Source of the DNA: Nitrososphaeraceae archaeon
GTDB taxonomy: Archaea > Thermoproteota > Nitrososphaeria > Nitrososphaerales > Nitrososphaeraceae
Reading direction: 5' to 3'
DNA: 7,786 bases
NCBI GenBank assembly: GCA_021155845.1
Contig: JAJNBK010000029.1
Span: 1-7,786, forward strand
Made by a program: the position numbers and the translations under genes. Position 1 is the first letter of the stretch; each line of letters begins with the position of its first letter. Under the pieces are notes generated by a model. That model saw only the letters and a program-made list of their open reading frames with translations, was not told where the DNA came from and searched no databases. Below, piece by piece: positions 1-7,786 of this stretch.

Positions 1-441
1 TTTCCACGGATATCTTAGTCGACGCGAAAATACAATATTGATGATTGGCCAGTTACATACATTACATCTTTTGGTCGTAGTTTTTATTGAGCCTTTCTGG
101 GGGAGCGGAGCAGTTGCTTTACATCCAGCAGAGTAATTAGAACAACCAACGAATCTCTTCTTTGATGTGCGAGATATTCTAATTCTTAATTCTCCTTTTT
201 GACACAAAGGACAAGTTCCAGCAATTATCTCTTTGGTCAAAGTAATATCTGCCACATTCGTTATCTTATCTCCTCGATCAACCTCTTTTTCTTTAAATCT
301 AGTGAGCCACTCGATTAGATTATCTACGGCATATTCTATAACCGAAAAGCTCTTGCTCTTACATATTTCAATATTTTCTAAATCTTTTTCCATTGCTCTG
401 GTAAAATCTGTAGAAACAATAGTTGGTACATATTTTTTCAT
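1..441 (-). CDS. Topoisomerase IA C-terminal fragment (zinc-finger region), partial at left edge
   Basis: Downstream of the 38-bp duplication a clean minus-strand frame runs to the window edge; the first ATG is at 441, but homology starts earlier, at about 534 (ISTLFNRNYIVTSQKF). It reads MKKYVPTIVSTDFTRAMEKD, matching the end of the type IA core (the FTxxME helix), then a linker and Cys pairs: CPLC with downstream Cys residues (FVGCSNYSAGC), then CNVC at the start of a second finger. These four-Cys fingers are typical of archaeal TopA tails and bind single-stranded DNA. The stop codon and last finger lie outside the window. It is the third piece of the broken gene rather than an independent protein. 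Confidence 0.65.
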   Translation of the reverse strand, partial: MKKYVPTIVSTDFTRAMEKDLENIEICKSKSFSVIEYAVDNLIEWLTRFKEKEVDRGDKITNVADITLTKEIIAGTCPLCQKGELRIRISRTSKKRFVGCSNYSAGCKATAPLPQKGSIKTTTKRCNVCNWPIINIVFSRRLRYPWK

Positions 442-496
442 AGTTTCTATTACAGCAAATCCGAGATCTGTGGCTTCAATTCCAAAAAATTTTTGA

Positions 497-572
497 CTCG
501 TGACAATATAATTTCGGTTGAACAAAGTACTTATCTCGTGACAATATAATTTCGGTTGAACAAAGTACTTAT
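497..572. repeat. Perfect 38-bp tandem duplication inside topA
   Basis: Copies 497-534 and 535-572 are identical and adjacent, each beginning CTCGTGACAATA and ending GTACTTAT on the plus strand. Since 38 is not a multiple of three, the duplication shifts the minus-strand topoisomerase frame and creates the TAA at 531-533. One copy alone joins the central and C-terminal parts in frame. Confidence 0.95.
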
Positions 573-1787
573 GATTTGTGCTCTTGTAGCCTTTGTCCCA
601 ATCTGTTCTTTTTCCATCTTTTCCAATAAACTAGCCTGGTTAAATCGAAATGGCGGTTGCGTGAATTTCTCTTTAGAAATAACTACGGCATTTCTCAAAA
701 TATCGCCTTGATTCAATTTTGGGAGTTCTACTTCGTGAAATATAAAATACGGTTCGTAAAAATGTATCCATCCTTCATGTATTTTTGATTTTCCTTCAGA
801 TTTGAAAACATAACGACCATTGATATCAATTGATGCTGTTGTATGCTGATTTACCGCTGGATCACCGAAAGTCGCCAAGAACCTCCTGACAATAAGATCA
901 TAGATTTTACAATGCATTGGATCTAGTTGTCGCTTCGGTTTTTCTCCAGTTGGATATATGGCTGGATGTGCCGGATCTGTTTTAATTCCATCATTCGGTA
1001 AAAGACGATCCTTGGAAAGTAATGCTGCGGTTAAACTTCCGTAATTGCTATTAACTTTAGACAGACGCGCAATAATTTTCTTATAGTCTATAGATAACGG
1101 CAGCTTCTGACTTGATGTTCGTGGATAAGAAATCATTGCATTAAGATAAAGCCTTTCTGCAATTGAAAGCGTGTAAGTAGGAGAAAATTTGAATAGTCTA
1201 TATGCCTCCTTTTGTAAGTCGCCTAGATTGAATGGAGTAGGAGGATGGAGTAAAATTTTTTGAACTTTAATTTGACTGACTAATCCATCTTTGCCATTAC
1301 AAGCATTAATTATTGAATTTGCTTCTAATAATGTCTGTACCTTGTCTTTTTCATAAAATGCTTGAATTATGTGCCCATTTTTTTCAAAATCTGCTATTAT
1401 GCCCCAATAAGGATCTGGAATATGCTTTCTAATATCAATCTCTTTGTCTACTACAAAAGCTAGAGTAGGTCCCTGTACTCTGCCAATGGACAAGTTATGG
1501 TATCGCTTACCATTATTGCCTACTTTAAACGATTGTGAAAGAGCTCTTGAAAGATTCACTCCATATATGAAATCAAGTATATGTCTAGATCTACCAGCTT
1601 CAGCCAAGCCCCTGTTAGGTTTTAGCAAATTATCAAAGGATTCTCTTATTTCTTGATCCGTAAGTGTTGAGAATTTAGCACGTAAGGATTTGTCATACTT
1701 AAATTTACAAGCATATTGAAGGATTACAAGCATATTGAAGGACATTGTAACCAATAACCTCACCTTCTTGATCATAGTCGCAGGCAT
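531..1787 (-). CDS. Topoisomerase IA central fragment (gate domains with catalytic tyrosine)
   Basis: This open frame encodes 418 aa. Its first ~24 residues are not genuine topoisomerase sequence: they are the Toprim end and duplicated DNA read out of frame. True homology resumes at about YACKFKYDKSLRAKFS. The rest is typical of type IA enzymes: the GRVQGPTLAFVVDKE segment, LGDLQKEAYRLF, the active-site ISYPRTSSQKLP with the DNA-linking Tyr, TDPAHPAIYPTGE, and FNQASLLEKMEKEQIGTKATRAQIISTLFNR. It ends at TAA 531-533 because a 38-bp tandem duplication shifts the frame; in a single-copy sequence it would continue as VTSQKFFG. Without the Toprim domain this piece would be inactive. Start 1787 is simply the first ATG of the frame and probably has no biological meaning. 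Confidence 0.7.
   Translation of the reverse strand: MPATMIKKVRLLVTMSFNMLVILQYACKFKYDKSLRAKFSTLTDQEIRESFDNLLKPNRGLAEAGRSRHILDFIYGVNLSRALSQSFKVGNNGKRYHNLSIGRVQGPTLAFVVDKEIDIRKHIPDPYWGIIADFEKNGHIIQAFYEKDKVQTLLEANSIINACNGKDGLVSQIKVQKILLHPPTPFNLGDLQKEAYRLFKFSPTYTLSIAERLYLNAMISYPRTSSQKLPLSIDYKKIIARLSKVNSNYGSLTAALLSKDRLLPNDGIKTDPAHPAIYPTGEKPKRQLDPMHCKIYDLIVRRFLATFGDPAVNQHTTASIDINGRYVFKSEGKSKIHEGWIHFYEPYFIFHEVELPKLNQGDILRNAVVISKEKFTQPPFRFNQASLLEKMEKEQIGTKATRAQIISTLFNRNYIVTR
1705..1742. repeat. Perfect 19-bp tandem duplication inside topA
   Basis: TTACAAGCATATTGAAGGA occurs at 1705-1723 and again at 1724-1742 with no gap. The extra 19 bp (one more than a multiple of three) shifts the minus-strand frame just after the Toprim acidic motif. 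With one copy the protein reads continuously GYNVLQYACKFKYD. Confidence 0.95.
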
Positions 1788-2118
1788 GGATAAATCCAGT
1801 AGCTCTTTTTGAGACCTCTGATATTGATTTTATAATTTGCTCCACTTTAAATAGTCTACGTGAGTTGGAGGGAAGTGGTATCCATTCTAAATCAAATACA
1901 GGATATATCTCTCGATTTTTTGTGACATCATCTAAGCCATATAGATGACCTATAGAAGAGAATATCATAATATTTGAAACTGCATAAAAAAATGGAACAC
2001 CATCTGATGATATGGATCTTTTAAAACTCTTGGTCCCAAGTGCCTGTGCTATCCTTTGTGCGGCATGAGGTTTTTCACAGATAACAAGGATAAATGGCTC
2101 ATCCTTTATATCAGGCAT
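1705..2118 (-). CDS. Topoisomerase IA N-terminal fragment (Toprim domain)
   Basis: This 137-aa reading frame starts at ATG 2118 and holds most of the Toprim domain. It contains the N-terminal ILVICEKPHAAQ strand-loop with the conserved Glu-Lys-Pro, SSIGHLYGL, and near the end the acidic HACDYDQEGEVIGYN motif that binds Mg2+. The frame leaves the family sequence after YNVLQYAC, exactly where the second copy of a 19-bp tandem repeat begins, and stops seven codons later after NPSICL. Translated alone it has no gate domain or catalytic tyrosine and could not cut DNA. The start is supported by the motif lying only about 10 residues in, as usual for archaeal TopA, and by a TATA-like box 33-45 bp upstream. 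Confidence 0.75.
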   Translation of the reverse strand: MPDIKDEPFILVICEKPHAAQRIAQALGTKSFKRSISSDGVPFFYAVSNIMIFSSIGHLYGLDDVTKNREIYPVFDLEWIPLPSNSRRLFKVEQIIKSISEVSKRATGFIHACDYDQEGEVIGYNVLQYACNPSICL

Positions 2119-2177: not shown

Positions 2178-2190
2178 TTTATATATATAT
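2178..2190 (+). promoter_or_regulatory. TATA box for the thiolase-DUF35 pair
   Basis: TTTATATATATAT is a strong archaeal TATA match. It overlaps the upstream ATG at 2189, so that ATG cannot be in a transcript made from this box. The expected start about 25 bp downstream (roughly 2208-2213) coincides with the second in-frame ATG at 2213, implying a leaderless mRNA. Confidence 0.55.
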
Positions 2191-2212
2191 GCAAAAAAGT
2201 ACTTCTAAACAC

Positions 2213-3373
2213 ATGACAAATAAGGTCTGTGTTCTTGGTGCGGGCAGTACTAATTATGGTAAATTAAATGAAAGTATTATTGAAATAGCATTAAATGCAT
2301 CAAAAGATGCGATAGAGTCTGCAGGTATTACACCAAAGGATATTCAGGCAGGCTATATCTCAAATGTTTTTGGAGTGACTGACAAGCAGGTACATATGGC
2401 ACCCGTTATTATGAGTAACTTAGGAATTCCCAACGTTCCAGGACTTACCATTGAGTCTGCATGTGGTTCAGGTTCTGTTATGTTCAGGGAGGCATACGCT
2501 AACATAGCTGCAGGATTTTATGATTGTGTTTTGGCATTAGGCGTCGAGAAAATAACACATACAGGAACTACTCAGAGTACTACTTTATTTTCTTACTGTT
2601 CTGATTTCTTTTATGAAGGAGGAAATGGAGCATCATTTCCTGGATTATTTGCATCAATAGCAAGAGTATATATGACTACACACAAAGCTAATGAAGAAGA
2701 CCTTGCTTACGTAGCTGTAAAGAACCATGAAAATGGAATCCTCAATCCAAAGGCTCATGTTCGAAAAAAAATCACAGTTGATGATGTAATGAAATCTCCT
2801 GTCGTGGCTTCACCTTTGAAACTTTATGACTGCTGCCCGTTTTCAGATGGGGCATCAGCTGTCATACTTTGTAATGAAGAGTTTGCCAAGAAAAGCCAAA
2901 AACCATATGTTGAAGTTATAGGTTCAGGCAGAGGAGCATCACCTGCGGCAGTTCAAGCTCGTGAAGATATTACTACTATTCCAAGCACAATATCGGCTGC
3001 AAAGCAAGCATACAAAATGGCTGGTATTACTCCAAAAGATATTGATTTTGCAGAAGTGCATGACTGCTTTACAATAGCAGAAATCATTGATATTGAAGAT
3101 CTTGGTTTCTTTCCAAAAGGAACTGCTGCTCATGCTGTAACAGAAGGAGCAACTCGAAGAAATGGCGAAATTCCAATCAATCCGTCTGGTGGTTTGAAAT
3201 CAAAGGGACATCCAATCGGTGCAACAGGCGTAGGTCAGGTCGTAGAAGTTTTTGAGCAGTTTACCGGTAAAGCAGGAGAAAGAACTGTTAAGAACGCAGA
3301 AACCGCTCTTACACACAATTTTGGCGCGACTGGTGCAAGTGCTGCTGTTCATATTTTTAGAAAGGTACAGTAA
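2213..3373 (+). CDS. Thiolase family protein (acetyl-CoA C-acetyltransferase, archaeal type)
   Basis: Thiolases condense two acetyl-CoA to acetoacetyl-CoA or cleave it. In Thaumarchaeota this step starts the mevalonate pathway for lipids and ends the 3-hydroxypropionate/4-hydroxybutyrate carbon-fixation cycle. From this start the protein has 386 aa, normal for the family. It has the nucleophilic Cys in ESACGSGS (residue 84), HDCF (His 283), GHPIGATG (His 333) and a C-terminal HNFGATG in place of the second catalytic Cys motif of bacterial thiolases, as in archaeal/SCP2-like members. I chose ATG 2213 because the TATA box at 2178-2190 overlaps the alternative ATG at 2189 and family proteins begin near KVCVLGAG; the longer form would be 394 aa. 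A DUF35 gene follows 36 bp later, as in archaeal thiolase/HMG-CoA synthase complexes, but no HMG-CoA synthase gene is in this window. Exact substrate is not decided by the sequence. Confidence 0.9.
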   Translation: MTNKVCVLGAGSTNYGKLNESIIEIALNASKDAIESAGITPKDIQAGYISNVFGVTDKQVHMAPVIMSNLGIPNVPGLTIESACGSGSVMFREAYANIAAGFYDCVLALGVEKITHTGTTQSTTLFSYCSDFFYEGGNGASFPGLFASIARVYMTTHKANEEDLAYVAVKNHENGILNPKAHVRKKITVDDVMKSPVVASPLKLYDCCPFSDGASAVILCNEEFAKKSQKPYVEVIGSGRGASPAAVQAREDITTIPSTISAAKQAYKMAGITPKDIDFAEVHDCFTIAEIIDIEDLGFFPKGTAAHAVTEGATRRNGEIPINPSGGLKSKGHPIGATGVGQVVEVFEQFTGKAGERTVKNAETALTHNFGATGASAAVHIFRKVQ

Positions 3374-3409
3374 AATAACACTGTCTGGTGCTAACAGGTA
3401 ACAGCAGCT

Positions 3410-3778
3410 ATGAGTGCACGAGAGAAGTTTATCGCATCGGCTAAAAAAAATAAAATTCTTGCCAACAAATGTTCCTATTGCGGACATACAATGCTAGAGA
3501 CAGTAAACTATTGTGAAAAATGCTTTGGTAGCAAATTTGAAACTATCGAACTGGAAGGAATTGGCAAGGTGGTCACTTATACGATCCAAGCTGTAGCGCC
3601 AGAAGGATTTGAAGATGCCGGCTCATATGCTTGGGTCGTTTTCAAGGTAGATAATGCGCCATTTAGAGCATCGGGGTTTCTTCCTAGGATTGCAACCCCC
3701 AAAGATCTACCTATAGGAACAACAGTCAAAGTAACCGGCTTTGATCTAAAACATGGTCTTTTGTTACAAAAGCTTTAG
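3410..3778 (+). CDS. DUF35 Zn-ribbon/OB-fold protein, thiolase partner
   Basis: This 122-aa protein has an N-terminal helix (residues 1-18), a rubredoxin-like zinc ribbon with Cys pairs at 21/24 (CSYC) and 35/38 (CEKC), and an OB-fold from about residue 45 (GIGKVVTYTI through GTTVKVTGFD). This is the DUF35 family layout. In archaea such proteins bridge thiolase and HMG-CoA synthase and provide a shared CoA-binding site that channels acetoacetyl-CoA; they are not known to be catalytic alone. It lies 36 bp after the thiolase on the same strand with no obvious terminator between, so the two are probably co-transcribed and form a complex. A weak Shine-Dalgarno-like AGGT lies 10 nt before the ATG. 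Family assignment is firm; the partner role is inferred from neighbours and family knowledge. Confidence 0.88.
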   Translation: MSAREKFIASAKKNKILANKCSYCGHTMLETVNYCEKCFGSKFETIELEGIGKVVTYTIQAVAPEGFEDAGSYAWVVFKVDNAPFRASGFLPRIATPKDLPIGTTVKVTGFDLKHGLLLQKL

Positions 3779-4127: not shown

Positions 4128-4742
4128 ATGGACAAGCATCAACAATTCATGAGTGATATTTTAACCGCCAGCACAGTAGTTCATAACCAACTCACTCGAT
4201 TGAATATGCTTGATAAAAAGTTCACTATAATGGATAAAGACTTGCGTTATAAAATAGCTGCTAACATAAAGGCTGGTAACAATGCTAGGGCAAGAGCTCT
4301 TGCAATAGAACTATCAAATATACATCGAATTCAGCGTACTACACAAAACATGAGCCTTGCACTAGAAGTAGTAGTAATACGCTTTAGTACTATCAATGAA
4401 TTTGCCATGGTGCTTGATACCATTAATCCAACTATTGAAATGATAAAGGATATTCAAAATGATATTTCGAGGGCAGTTCCAACAACAAACCACTTGTTAT
4501 CAGAGATGACGTCGATGACATCGGACATTCTACTTAACACTAATATCAAGTCAGAGATAGGCAAGATTTCAACTTCTATGGATTCTGACGCGCTTTCAAT
4601 ATTGAACGAAGTCGAAGGAATACTTGAAGACGAAGCAAAGTCGCGATTACCTGAAGTTCCAACTACTATTCAGGAGGTTAGAATAGGTAGAGATGTTGAG
4701 GAAGTCACAGTTAAAGATAATCGTATGATGATTGAAAGTTAA
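4128..4742 (+). CDS. ESCRT-III/CdvB family cell-division protein
   Basis: ESCRT-III proteins polymerise on membranes and are remodelled by the AAA ATPase Vps4/CdvC; in Thaumarchaeota they carry out cell division and several paralogues exist. This 204-aa protein has the Snf7-like helical layout: a basic early helical hairpin (about residues 10-90, with Arg/Lys-rich KAGNNARARALAIELSNIHR), a central helix with IEMIKDIQNDI (103-113), and an acidic distal part (DSDALSILNEVEGILEDEA, 152-170). LPEVP at 174-178 resembles the MIM2 motif that binds Vps4-type MIT domains (eukaryotic CHMP6 has a closely similar stretch). No membrane segment or winged-helix tail is visible. It has its own promoter and is followed by a 39-nt palindrome and a predicted nucleotide-sensing regulator. 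No cdvA or cdvC lies in the window. The assignment rests on helical pattern and motifs, so which paralogue it is remains open. Confidence 0.78.
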   Translation: MDKHQQFMSDILTASTVVHNQLTRLNMLDKKFTIMDKDLRYKIAANIKAGNNARARALAIELSNIHRIQRTTQNMSLALEVVVIRFSTINEFAMVLDTINPTIEMIKDIQNDISRAVPTTNHLLSEMTSMTSDILLNTNIKSEIGKISTSMDSDALSILNEVEGILEDEAKSRLPEVPTTIQEVRIGRDVEEVTVKDNRMMIES

Positions 4743-4755
4743 ATCTGTTGACCTG

Positions 4756-4794
4756 CTAATCAATTGATAGGAGTAGGGCCTATTATATGATTAG
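4756..4794. promoter_or_regulatory. 39-nt imperfect palindrome between cdvB-like gene and HTH/ATP-cone gene
   Basis: CTAATCA (4756-4762) pairs with TGATTAG (4788-4794). After a symmetric two-base mismatch, TGATAGG (4765-4771) pairs with CCTATTA (4779-4785) with one G-T wobble, around loop AGTAGGG. A nested perfect palindrome ATCAATTGAT occupies 4759-4768. It starts 14 nt after the cdvB-like stop and ends 52 nt before the next ATG. It could be an RNA hairpin ending the upstream transcript or a dimer operator for the HTH protein encoded downstream; the absence of a T-run slightly favours an operator. Confidence 0.5.
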
Positions 4795-4846
4795 TTAATA
4801 AAAATTTACAAAGTAGTTTTAATCATTTATACGAATAACGGGTGCA

Positions 4847-6982
4847 ATGGAACAGTTGAGTCACGACTATTCATATCAAACAGAAACTAGGCGGGATGGA
4901 GTTTTAGAATCTGCTTCAAAACGAGTTAGAATGATTTTTTCTGTTATGGCTAGCCCTAATAGAATTGATATTCTGCGTATTTTAAATTCTAAAGGACCTC
5001 TGACTTATTCGGAATTAAAGTCTCTTGCCGGATTCAAATCTAAAAAGGAGTCTGGAAAATTTGCTTATCATTTACGAAAACTGCTAAGACAATCACTTGT
5101 TGCTCTTAACAAGGCAGAACGACGTTACACTATTACTAACTTGGGTAAATTGGTATTGAGCCTTGCCAGACAAATAGAGGAAAGATCAATAATTGAAAGT
5201 GGTAAAATGTACGTTAGGACCACCAGACATTCAATCGAAGAGTTTAATTCCCATAAGATAATCCAGTCATTAGTAAGAGAGGCCAACATGCCCCTTGAAC
5301 AGGCAAACAAAATTACAGAAGAGGTTGAAAACAAGATATACAAATTTCAGACTTCCTATCTTACTTCATCATTAATTAGAGAAACAGTGAATTCAGTGTT
5401 AATTGAACATGGACATGAAGAATATAGAAACAAGTTGGCCAGATTAGGGTTACCTGCTTCTGATATTGTAGAGATATTAAATAATATAGACACAGTGAAG
5501 AACGGAGCTGATAGTATAATGTCAAAGGCTTCTCAATCTGTATTCTCTGAACATCTCATGCTCAATATACTTCCAAAAGATATAGCAGATATGCACTTGA
5601 ATGGTGAAATAAGTATCTCTAACAGTGGAATTTGGAGCTTGCTCCCTGATACTGTATTTCTAAATATTACTGATTTTGCTGAAGTCGGTCTAGACTTAAA
5701 AGGCAAATTCTTAAATGTCTCTAGAATACCTGCTATAAAGAATTCAGATGACCTTGGAATTGCTCTGCCTATATTGATTTCGCTTCTAAGTAGAGAGGTT
5801 TCAACAGAAATTGTACTTGATGGAATTATTCCCTTATTATTAGATGATCAGCTAAGAGAACCAAATGAGATTGCATCACGATTTGAGAATATTTTGATAG
5901 CATCTTCTGTAGCCCCATCTTATTCTCCAGCTGGACTTCCTGTTACTACAATAACCGTTCAATTAGATAAATTTGATAAAAAATCAATTGACGCAGTATT
6001 GTCTGGTTATAAAAGTTACATTGCCTCTACTCCTGTTCCTAGAATAGGAATATGCCTAATCAATAATGACAAACTAAAGGATTATACTGATACTATTGCG
6101 TCAATAGTACGCACTGGTGGCATCATTTCCATTTTACAAAATGGATCTAGAAGTAATAATGGTGTTCGTAAAAATATAGGAGGCAAGGGTTCTAGTACAG
6201 TTATGACTTTACAATCACTTTCTATTAATCTTCCAAGACTGGCATATCAATCGAATAAGGATGAAACTTATTTCAGGGCAAGGCTTGCTCTCATGATAAA
6301 GCCTGCATTATCTGCGATGTCGATTAGGAAGAAGGCTATTGCTGATCTTATAAGGAAACAAATGGTTCCTGTGATTGCTAACAGCGCACAATTCATACAG
6401 CTTGGAACTACTAATGTTATAATTAATCTTACGGGCATAGAAGAATCGGTATATAAAATTTTAGGTCATGACGCTTCTAATGATGGAGCAGAGATTTTGC
6501 AAAAAGTTTTGAAGACTGCTGTAGATGTGGCTGCAGAACATGGTAAACAGCTTGGAGAAGACTCTATAGGAATTGCTATGATACATGATGATAGTGCTAC
6601 AAGATTTGCAACTCTAGATTCTGATAAATATGGTAGGATCTCTCTTCTAACATCAAATCAACAAAAAACAGTTACTTATTCACAAGGGTTAACATTAAAT
6701 GCTAGAGAGTTGTTGTCGTCTGACAATAATAAACATAATTCTGTAATTAAGGAATGTATATCAATAGATAATATACTCAATGGCGGGCTTTCGTTAACTT
6801 TGGATGTAAGCGAGCTTTACTCTGATGAAGAAGTAAAGAATGCAATAGAATCTGTAGCAGACCTACCCTTCTTCCGTCTCATGTCTAGAGTATTGGTGTG
6901 CAACACTTGTGGTAAAAGATCGAGCACACAATCTAGTGAAAGATGCGAATATTGCAAATCACCTTATCTGCTGATGATTTAG
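4847..6982 (+). CDS. ArsR-type HTH + ATP-cone + NrdD-like (anaerobic ribonucleotide reductase-like) protein, probably non-catalytic
   Basis: The 711-aa protein has three visible parts. Residues ~25-105 form a winged HTH of ArsR type (VRMIFSVMASPNRIDILRIL, then SGKFAYHLRKLL and a wing at RRYTITNLG). Residues ~121-205 match an ATP-cone (VRTTRHSIEEFNSHKI ... LIRETVNSVLIEHG), the allosteric dATP/ATP-binding module of ribonucleotide reductases and NrdR. Residues ~225-711 resemble class III reductase NrdD (MHLNGEISISNSG, SINLPRLAYQS) and end in a Cys4 zinc site, CNTC (685-688) and CEYC (700-703). The chain stops eight residues after the last Cys, where NrdD normally carries its glycyl-radical loop; GSRS (433-436) stands where NrdD has a conserved Cys, and the IHIHD-like motif reads ISISN. 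I infer a nucleotide-responsive DNA-binding regulator, not an enzyme. ATG 4847 is the first ATG; TTTATAC at 4826-4832 is too close to serve it, whereas AATTTAC near 4803-4809 fits. Confidence 0.8.
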   Translation: MEQLSHDYSYQTETRRDGVLESASKRVRMIFSVMASPNRIDILRILNSKGPLTYSELKSLAGFKSKKESGKFAYHLRKLLRQSLVALNKAERRYTITNLGKLVLSLARQIEERSIIESGKMYVRTTRHSIEEFNSHKIIQSLVREANMPLEQANKITEEVENKIYKFQTSYLTSSLIRETVNSVLIEHGHEEYRNKLARLGLPASDIVEILNNIDTVKNGADSIMSKASQSVFSEHLMLNILPKDIADMHLNGEISISNSGIWSLLPDTVFLNITDFAEVGLDLKGKFLNVSRIPAIKNSDDLGIALPILISLLSREVSTEIVLDGIIPLLLDDQLREPNEIASRFENILIASSVAPSYSPAGLPVTTITVQLDKFDKKSIDAVLSGYKSYIASTPVPRIGICLINNDKLKDYTDTIASIVRTGGIISILQNGSRSNNGVRKNIGGKGSSTVMTLQSLSINLPRLAYQSNKDETYFRARLALMIKPALSAMSIRKKAIADLIRKQMVPVIANSAQFIQLGTTNVIINLTGIEESVYKILGHDASNDGAEILQKVLKTAVDVAAEHGKQLGEDSIGIAMIHDDSATRFATLDSDKYGRISLLTSNQQKTVTYSQGLTLNARELLSSDNNKHNSVIKECISIDNILNGGLSLTLDVSELYSDEEVKNAIESVADLPFFRLMSRVLVCNTCGKRSSTQSSERCEYCKSPYLLMI

Positions 6983-6994
6983 AAAAAGAATGAA

Positions 6995-7021
6995 AAAAGG
7001 TCTTGGGAGATAGGACCTTTT
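6995..7021 (+). terminator. Terminator-like hairpin after the HTH/ATP-cone gene
   Basis: AAAAGGTC (6995-7002) pairs perfectly with GACCTTTT (7014-7021), extended inward by three pairs (two of them wobble) around loop GGAGA. It starts 13 nt after the stop codon and runs into TTTTAATATTTATTT, a T-rich tract of the kind at which archaeal polymerase stops. Confidence 0.65.
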
Positions 7022-7253
7022 AATATTTATTTGATAGTGTACTTTTCGTACAGCTATAGCAATCGCAATCTATCATAATTTAAAATGCATTCAGAGTATT
7101 TATTTCTAAAATTCAACTTAAAGATAAAAATCGATCTCTTGCTAATTATTGTATTGTATATAGCTAATTAGAACATCATAGACAATCTGTTGATTAGCAC
7201 GAAACATTAAAGAAATAGCTAGAGTATCTCTATGTAAACTAATATGTTATACA

Positions 7254-7293
7254 ATGGTATATATGGTAATATGTATTGAATAGATATTGAATA
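7254..7293. repeat. Cluster of short AT-rich direct repeats
   Basis: TATTGAATA occurs at 7274-7282 and 7285-7293, an 11-bp period close to one helical turn. Just upstream ATGGTATAT (7254-7262) abuts ATGGTAATAT (7263-7272). Such phasing can mark protein binding or curved DNA, but the composition is so AT-rich that chance is possible. Confidence 0.5.
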
Positions 7294-7332
7294 TACAAAT
7301 AAGAAAACGTAGTCATTGACAAGAAAGTAAAA

Positions 7333-7352
7333 TATTGGGGATTTCCTCAATA
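7333..7352 (-). terminator. Hairpin with a T-rich tail on the minus strand
   Basis: TATTGGGG (7333-7340) and CCTCAATA (7345-7352) form an 8-bp stem with one G-T wobble and a four-base loop. On the minus strand the stem is followed by TTTTACTTTCTT, terminator-like, about 50 bp beyond the stop of the short acidic frame at 7402-7479. Confidence 0.4.
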
Positions 7353-7401
7353 ATCAGATTGATTCTCTTAGAATTTAACATTAGTTTAGACTTAGGCTCC
7401 G

Positions 7402-7479
7402 TTAATAATCATCATCATCTTCTTCTTCTTCTTCAAAGTCCTTACATGAATACTTTGTTTTTGCAGACTTAATTGAGTT
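7402..7479 (-). other. Short acidic minus-strand frame, possible gene remnant
   Basis: Twenty-five sense codons between stops at 7480-7482 and 7402-7404 read NSIKSAKTKYSCK followed by DFEEEEEDDDDY. This looks like the acidic tail of a real protein, but there is no ATG, GTG or TTG in frame, and upstream stops close the other frames. The GAA/GAT run corresponds to a plus-strand (ATC)4(TTC)5 tract at 7408-7434. A perfect TTTATAAA-type box sits just upstream (7477-7487, minus) and a hairpin follows. It may be a decayed gene, a small RNA or a chance product of the trinucleotide repeat. Confidence 0.25.
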
Positions 7480-7602
7480 TTATAAAGTCGATGTATCAGT
7501 TTGTTCTATAATAAATTCAATTTCTACATTCTATTTTGCATTTCTCGCTATATCATATAAGAATTCATAGGGAAAAAAACTTGGATTATAATTCAAAATA
7601 AT

Positions 7603-7619
7603 TTATCATTTTATGATAA
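7603..7619 (-). terminator. Hairpin after the partial minus-strand gene at the right edge
   Basis: TTATCAT (7603-7609) and ATGATAA (7613-7619) form a perfect 7-bp stem with a three-base loop. On the minus strand it begins 8 bases past the TAA at 7627-7629 and is followed by ATTATTTT, as expected for the end of a transcript. Confidence 0.45.
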
Positions 7620-7626
7620 GTGATTG

Positions 7627-7785
7627 TTACATCTTTTTCATATCTTTTCTTTGCTTTGAAAATATACTGTGTAATACAGCTACGTAATTTGAGATCAATT
7701 CTCCAGACTGCATCTCTTCTCGCCGTTTTTCAAGATCATTACCGAAAGCCATTGTCAATGATTTTGGCAATTTCAGATGTTCATT
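7627..7785 (-). CDS. Unidentified protein, C-terminal 52 residues (partial at right edge)
   Basis: On the minus strand a frame is open from the right edge to TAA 7627-7629. It reads NEHLKLPKSLTMAFGNDLEK and continues through RREEMQSGELISNYVAVLHS to SKQRKDMKKM. The mix of charged and hydrophobic residues suits a helical protein end, with a basic tail and no Cys or membrane segment. I do not recognise the family. An internal ATG (in LTMAFG) would give a 41-residue protein, so a very small complete gene cannot be excluded. A hairpin with a T-rich tail just after the stop supports a real transcript end. Confidence 0.5.
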   Translation of the reverse strand, partial: NEHLKLPKSLTMAFGNDLEKRREEMQSGELISNYVAVLHSIFSKQRKDMKKM

Positions 7786-7786
7786 T

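Follow-up and report, generated by a model that had tools for sequence, protein, structure and literature searches.

A winged-helix, ATP-cone and pseudo-NrdD fusion in Thermoproteota as a likely regulator of ribonucleotide reductase genes

The closest described systems to the protein considered here are NrdR, the class III reductase NrdD and the ArsR/SmtB-type regulators. The ATP-cone, which is common to the first two, is reportedly the subject of a study by Aravind from 2000. To our knowledge it is not settled how archaea match reductase expression to the demand for dNTPs. NrdR is a protein of 140–220 aa in which an N-terminal zinc ribbon binds DNA next to an ATP-cone, which has no NrdD body, and whose gene lies beside those of ribonucleotide reductase (RNR), as set out in excerpts of PMC9110341. 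The same excerpts call NrdR rare in archaea, and in 2009 RNRdb contained 1268 NrdR entries from bacteria and 6 from archaea (PMC2795772, excerpt). Class III NrdD combines an ATP-cone with the NrdD barrel fold and a Cys4 zinc site, and in the Prevotella copri enzyme an HxHD motif and an NxN flap are responsible for substrate binding (PMC11226230, excerpt).

The stretch analysed, called the window, comprises 7,786 nucleotides of a Nitrososphaeraceae archaeon contig and encodes a protein that resembles each of the three in part (Table 1). As with NrdR, a DNA-binding module is joined to an ATP-cone and the gene is typically found beside RNR; sensing of dATP and ATP for the transcription of RNR is a presumed likeness. 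Unlike NrdR, the candidate DNA-binding part is a winged HTH and the zinc cysteines are C-terminal (residues 685–703), within an NrdD body. The NrdR model TIGR00244 gave no match to the protein at E values up to 10, and exceeded its cut-off in 0/58 genomes of ammonia-oxidising archaea (AOA; one sub-threshold match), in a search that 9 of 14 controls pass. Judged by its sequence the protein is not a member of NrdR, and by analogy it would work like one. With class III NrdD it shares the cone, the barrel, the zinc site and a common ancestry, whereas it has added a winged HTH and lost the radical and substrate residues together with the glycyl loop. The winged HTH is also found in ArsR/SmtB-type regulators, but here the sensing part is a reductase and not a metal site. 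A literature search covering titles, the beginnings of abstracts and term counts of freely accessible papers returned no description of the fusion, and the excerpts of PMC11226230, PMC9110341, PMC3019208, PMC2795772 and PMC9531940 make no mention of it.

The protein is likely to regulate the transcription of RNR genes, and probably of other genes of nucleotide metabolism, by reading the (d)NTP pool. The first-pass annotation had proposed such a nucleotide-sensing factor; the analysis confirms its observation and supports its interpretation.

Table 1. Positions in the window of the regulator, its parts and its surroundings
Feature	Positions	Strand	Basis or remark
Thiolase + OB/zinc-ribbon pair	2189..3778	+	Upstream; each in 71/81 loci (window + best 80 of 261)
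CdvB-type (ESCRT-III) paralogue	4128..4742	+	NF041008 E 7e-15 (sub-threshold)
Candidate operator, palindrome GTNAA-N6-TTNAC (GTTAATAAAAATTTAC)	4794..4809	+	Motif count in upstreams
Promoter block TTTACAAAGTAGTTTTAAT	4805..4823	+	Nearly invariant in loci nearest the window; overlaps candidate operator
HTH-ATP-cone-pseudo-NrdD regulator	4847..6982	+	CDS, 711 aa
Winged HTH, residues 20-113	4904..5185	+	Pfam DUF7347/HTH_20, AF2 model, conservation
ATP-cone, residues 121-203	5207..5455	+	Pfam PF03477, E 2.3e-12, over cut-off
NrdD-like barrel body, ~residues 220-680	5504..6886	+	
HxHD (substrate-phosphate motif) position, now SISN	5612..5623	+	Alignment with true NrdDs
First catalytic cysteine position, now Thr269	5651..5653	+	Alignment
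Thiyl-radical cysteine position, now Val440	6164..6166	+	Alignment
Zinc-site cysteines C685/C688/C700/C703	6899..6955	+	ORF ends just after; no glycyl-radical loop
Stretch after the regulator, no convincing gene	6983..7786	+	Reductase starts here in 66/80 relatives (best 80 of 261)

Domains of the regulator and loss of reductase chemistry

The three-part composition first read from the translation is present in full according to Pfam, fold comparison and an AF2 model, and the NrdD-like body ends, as proposed, in a Cys4 zinc site. Both HTH_20 and DUF7347 exceed their cut-offs for the N-terminus, and structure prediction gives it an HTH fold with the secondary structure HHHH-EE-H (taken from a second AF2 model, the HTH of the first being too poor). 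The description of the HTH as ArsR-type stands as far as the winged HTH goes and not as to family: no ArsR model exceeds its cut-off (HTH_5 10.3 vs 22 bits; NF033788 23.1 vs 55), and the nearest PDB sequences, ArsR-family 6uvu and SmtB, match at a non-significant E of ~0.4. In several Nitrosopumilus-type members (L037, L040-L042, L046, L056, L062, L079 and others) a long Asp-rich tail precedes the HTH.

The catalytic residues were compared in an alignment of 10 usable true NrdDs, 18 non-AOA regulators and 11 AOA regulators, two further NrdD rows in wrong frames being left out of the counts. The glycyl-radical loop R(V/I)xGY, present in 10/10 usable true NrdDs, is missing from 11/11 AOA regulators and is missing or replaced in 18/18 non-AOA ones, as by RVSAK in L121. 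The first catalytic cysteine is gone in all 29 regulators, whilst the thiyl-radical cysteine is kept in 2/18 non-AOA and 0/11 AOA proteins. The HxHD motif and NxN flap are likewise lost, with neither present in any of the 11 AOA rows. The zinc cysteines are retained in 15/18 non-AOA and 11/11 AOA regulators. Lacking the glycyl-radical loop, both substrate motifs and both radical cysteines, the regulator should not be a reductase; an active NrdD is rejected on this alignment, and the earlier view of a retired enzyme is upheld. From the aligned sequences we read a stepwise decay of an NrdD inside a protein that was probably kept for another role.

Source annotations nevertheless name the protein as a working anaerobic reductase, for instance 'ribonucleoside-triphosphate reductase (formate)', a function with which the NrdD fold and the zinc cysteines would agree. 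Given the residues missing from all 11 AOA rows, this reading is practically excluded. The activase model TIGR02495 (NrdG2) has sub-threshold matches in 58/58 AOA genomes and none over cut-off, which may also speak against it, in a weak test that only 2 of 14 controls pass. No strong NrdD was found in the 58 AOA genomes, where the best NRDD match had an E no better than ~4e-23, while true NrdDs score 1e-90 and better with this profile. One AOA genome has a second, weak NRDD match (G008:C3:444859-445044), which covers the part with the zinc site and lies in a 386-aa frame of its own.

Spread, constraint and origin of the family

A profile search placed the family in 174 of 300 Thermoproteota genomes at E 1e-40 or better, a line of our own choosing (aligned ranges among the matches listed reach ~1e-52). 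Any match at all was found in 200 of the 300: 51 of these are AOA-like, with E of 1e-150 or lower, 123 are intermediate (1e-150 to 1e-40), and 26 are weaker and may be ordinary cones. The best 120 database matches are at least 77% identical to the protein. A contig scan gave 261 relatives, the best 80 of which were taken as loci L001-L080 and belong by their record titles to Nitrososphaerales and Nitrosopumilales, apart from a few odd titles. The titles of L024, L028, L072 and L080 (Nitrosopumilales, bacterium, Phycisphaerales and Nitrososphaeraceae, respectively) mismatch the group of the protein, and these contigs are probably misbinned or mislabelled. Bathyarchaeal-type relatives come from Bathyarchaeota wherever a taxon is named, bar one 'archaeon'. 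The family is thus wide in Thermoproteota, bathyarchaea included, and is not confined to aerobic archaea, as the initial idea of a device of an aerobic archaeon might suggest. When eight non-AOA proteins were scanned with Pfam, NRDD exceeded its cut-off in all eight and the cone in six; each had some HTH model, with DUF7347 clearly over cut-off in five. Three short members (L136, L137 and L138, 587-602 aa) have no zinc tail; an ornithine/aspartate carbamoyltransferase gene adjoins L136 according to Pfam, and L137 and L138 look alike.

Constraint is unevenly distributed along the protein. Between two AOA groups, split by locus number and compared as 31 x 47 proteins, mean identity is 96.3% over residues 20-125, 76.6% over the cone and 39.3% over the body. 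A 99-aa HTH block reaches 97.8% (1426 pairs) against 41.3% at third codon positions. The HTH is therefore by far the most constrained part and the cone the second most conserved. A relic is unlikely, since the HTH is near-constant while third codon positions diverge.

The cone of the regulators is a variant with VRTT or VRTS, where other aligned cones have V(x)KRD. The absence of KRD-type residues counts against a protein that reads the nucleotide pool, and is consistent with a protein that regulates the RNR locus by binding DNA but whose cone and body have ceased to bind nucleotides and serve only for oligomerisation, with another source of control such as redox state or the cell cycle. The low identity of the body between the AOA groups (39%, against 96-98% for the HTH) points the same way. 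We consider this unlikely, because the cone is still 77% identical between the groups and VRTS-like cones also occur on the nrdD products adjoining regulators in L124-L127, which keep intact catalytic residues.

As to origin, a tree of cone and body (592 columns, 39 rows), with the root placed by us inside the NrdDs, parts the regulators from true NrdDs with a support of 1.000 and groups the AOA proteins with short forms of 587-620 aa (support 0.949). Of the notion of a retired anaerobic reductase serving as scaffold, the NrdD without catalytic residues is borne out, but the tree suggests an old duplicate and not a recently retired enzyme. From these sequences we infer that an old nrdD duplicate was combined with an HTH before the AOA arose. 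After acquiring the winged HTH, the duplicate would have shed its catalytic residues; in AOA the true nrdD would have gone, leaving the regulator to stand before a class II-type reductase.

Gene neighbourhood and candidate promoter sites

The link between regulator and reductase that had been suggested is now found in the neighbourhood itself. A PF02867 reductase is present in 58/58 AOA genomes searched. In 55 of them it lies directly downstream, sharing contig and strand with the regulator, and the Pfam match of the reductase starts 935-1405 bp past that of the regulator; in G004, G010 and G092 the two genes are on different contigs. In the loci inspected the first in-frame start codon of the reductase is 69-403 bp after the regulator stop. 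Among the best 80 of the 261 relatives a reductase match starts less than 700 bp downstream in 66, and 12 of the remaining 14 have less than 1.5 kb of DNA left. No reductase was found in the downstream DNA of L009 (6.4 kb) and L010 (2.1 kb), nor in the 804 bp of contig that remain in the window, and these three loci count against the regulator of RNR genes that we favour, as do the three genomes with the pair split between contigs. The thiolase and OB/zinc-ribbon genes are common neighbours, so the regulator of the window is in its usual place even though no reductase follows. The CdvB-type paralogue lies 104 bp upstream and is a neighbour in 31 of the best 80 of 261 loci, all among L001-L033. 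At the far end of the window, a topoisomerase IA gene (1-2118, minus strand) is broken into three parts that differ in reading frame (1-525, 531-1787 and 1705-2118), with a 38-bp unit twice in tandem near 480-560; this may be real decay or an assembly error.

Two AOA reductases were typed as class II: they score far above the cut-off of TIGR02504, the adenosylcobalamin-dependent class II model (742 and 754 bits vs 400), although they also exceed that of the class I model TIGR02506 (399 and 395 vs 341 bits). In non-AOA genomes the partner is different: where both genes are listed, nrdD lies directly downstream on the same strand in 12/78 genomes, the match extending at least as far as position 560 in 11 of the 12. 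Adjacency was not seen in the other 66, a further point against our reading. A glutaredoxin-like ORF stands between regulator and nrdD in L122, L123, L129 and L130, with Pfam confirmation for L130. Other non-AOA regulators are near genes for a carbamoyltransferase (pyrB and argF not being separable by Pfam), pyrI and a YfbR-like deoxynucleotidase (L131). That the regulator occurs together with two classes of RNR, as well as with genes for pyrimidines and deoxynucleotides, makes it very improbable that the protein is a global chromatin-like factor to which the RNR neighbourhood is incidental, despite an HTH block that is 97.8% identical between groups, as many binding sites might require, and some lineages with no RNR seen next door.

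A palindrome at 4756-4794 had been put forward as operator and was rejected, as it is not conserved in relatives, where 4794-4823 is conserved instead; on this comparison 4794-4809 is the better candidate. The pattern GTNAA-N6-TTNAC, picked by eye and scored on the same set (the window and loci up to L033), occurs with at most one mismatch in 32/32 regulator upstreams and exactly in 31 of them, whereas shuffled sequences give a mean of 3.9. The 19-bp block at 4805-4823 is exact in most window-group loci, ~42-45 bp before the start, and is probably BRE/TATA. In the reductase promoters of L034-L080 these half-sites recur with a spacer of 5: 43/46 have them with no more than one mismatch and 8 have them exactly, whereas shuffling gives a mean of 4.6 and a maximum of 8. 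Against this, the spacer in the regulator promoters of that group is 8 (31/47 with one mismatch and no exact case). In the window group (loci up to L033), GTNAA-N6-TTNAC is present in just 1/20 reductase promoters, likewise a point against our reading, and a shared operator there was dropped. Since the rows are related to one another and the pattern was chosen by eye, the promoter palindromes serve as a lead only. L122, L123, L127, L129 and L130 share a AATTTTATAC-type motif in front of nrdD, or in front of the glutaredoxin-like ORF that precedes it, and this motif is a possible operator.

Genome-wide, GTNAAN6TTTACAAAG has an exact match at the regulator's own promoter in 6/8 window-group genomes; G230 has it there only with one mismatch, and G218 lacks it at its regulator but has a single exact match elsewhere. 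When one mismatch is allowed, the totals exceed those of the reversed control in 5/8 genomes and fall short of them in 3/8; the spacer-5 pattern is below control in 8/9 genomes and about equal in G063. As these patterns are not clearly commoner than their reversed controls, which also counts against our reading, no regulon is claimed.

Exact sites at the regulator's own promoter in 6/8 genomes, set beside 1/20 reductase promoters of the same group, would suit a pseudo-NrdD that binds or caps RNR post-translationally and whose HTH regulates only its own gene, and the pairing of the two genes fits this as well. Such a role appears quite improbable to us, given that constraint is by far the strongest on the HTH and that a different RNR class is paired in non-AOA genomes, which makes one conserved protein contact less likely.

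Proposed mechanism and meaning

In the mechanism that we infer for a transcription regulator of RNR genes, in which DNA binding, ligand, sign of regulation and autoregulation are all conjectural, the winged HTH would bind promoter DNA and the ATP-cone would bind ATP or dATP. The dead NrdD body would be a dimerisation scaffold, possibly with a second ligand site, and the state of the pool would alter the DNA binding of the regulator. Its own gene is probably among its targets, by way of the candidate site at 4794-4809. As the regulator usually stands right before the live reductase in AOA, it probably sets the amount of DNA building block. By analogy, the best reading is that it stands where NrdR stands in bacteria.

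We hold it to be evenly balanced whether this is a previously undescribed, Thermoproteota-wide class of transcription factor, made from a whole dead RNR with its own allosteric machinery and a DNA-binding head, that does the work of NrdR. Such a regulator, adjoining a class III enzyme in one set of lineages and a class II enzyme in another, would have outlived its parent enzyme. Ammonia oxidisers are among the most abundant archaea. If the reading is true, it would answer for them and for many of their relatives how reductase expression is controlled, and a whole enzyme would have been turned into a gene regulator. Database names that call the regulator an anaerobic reductase would be corrected, and the regulator gene with its conserved promoter site would offer a direct test.
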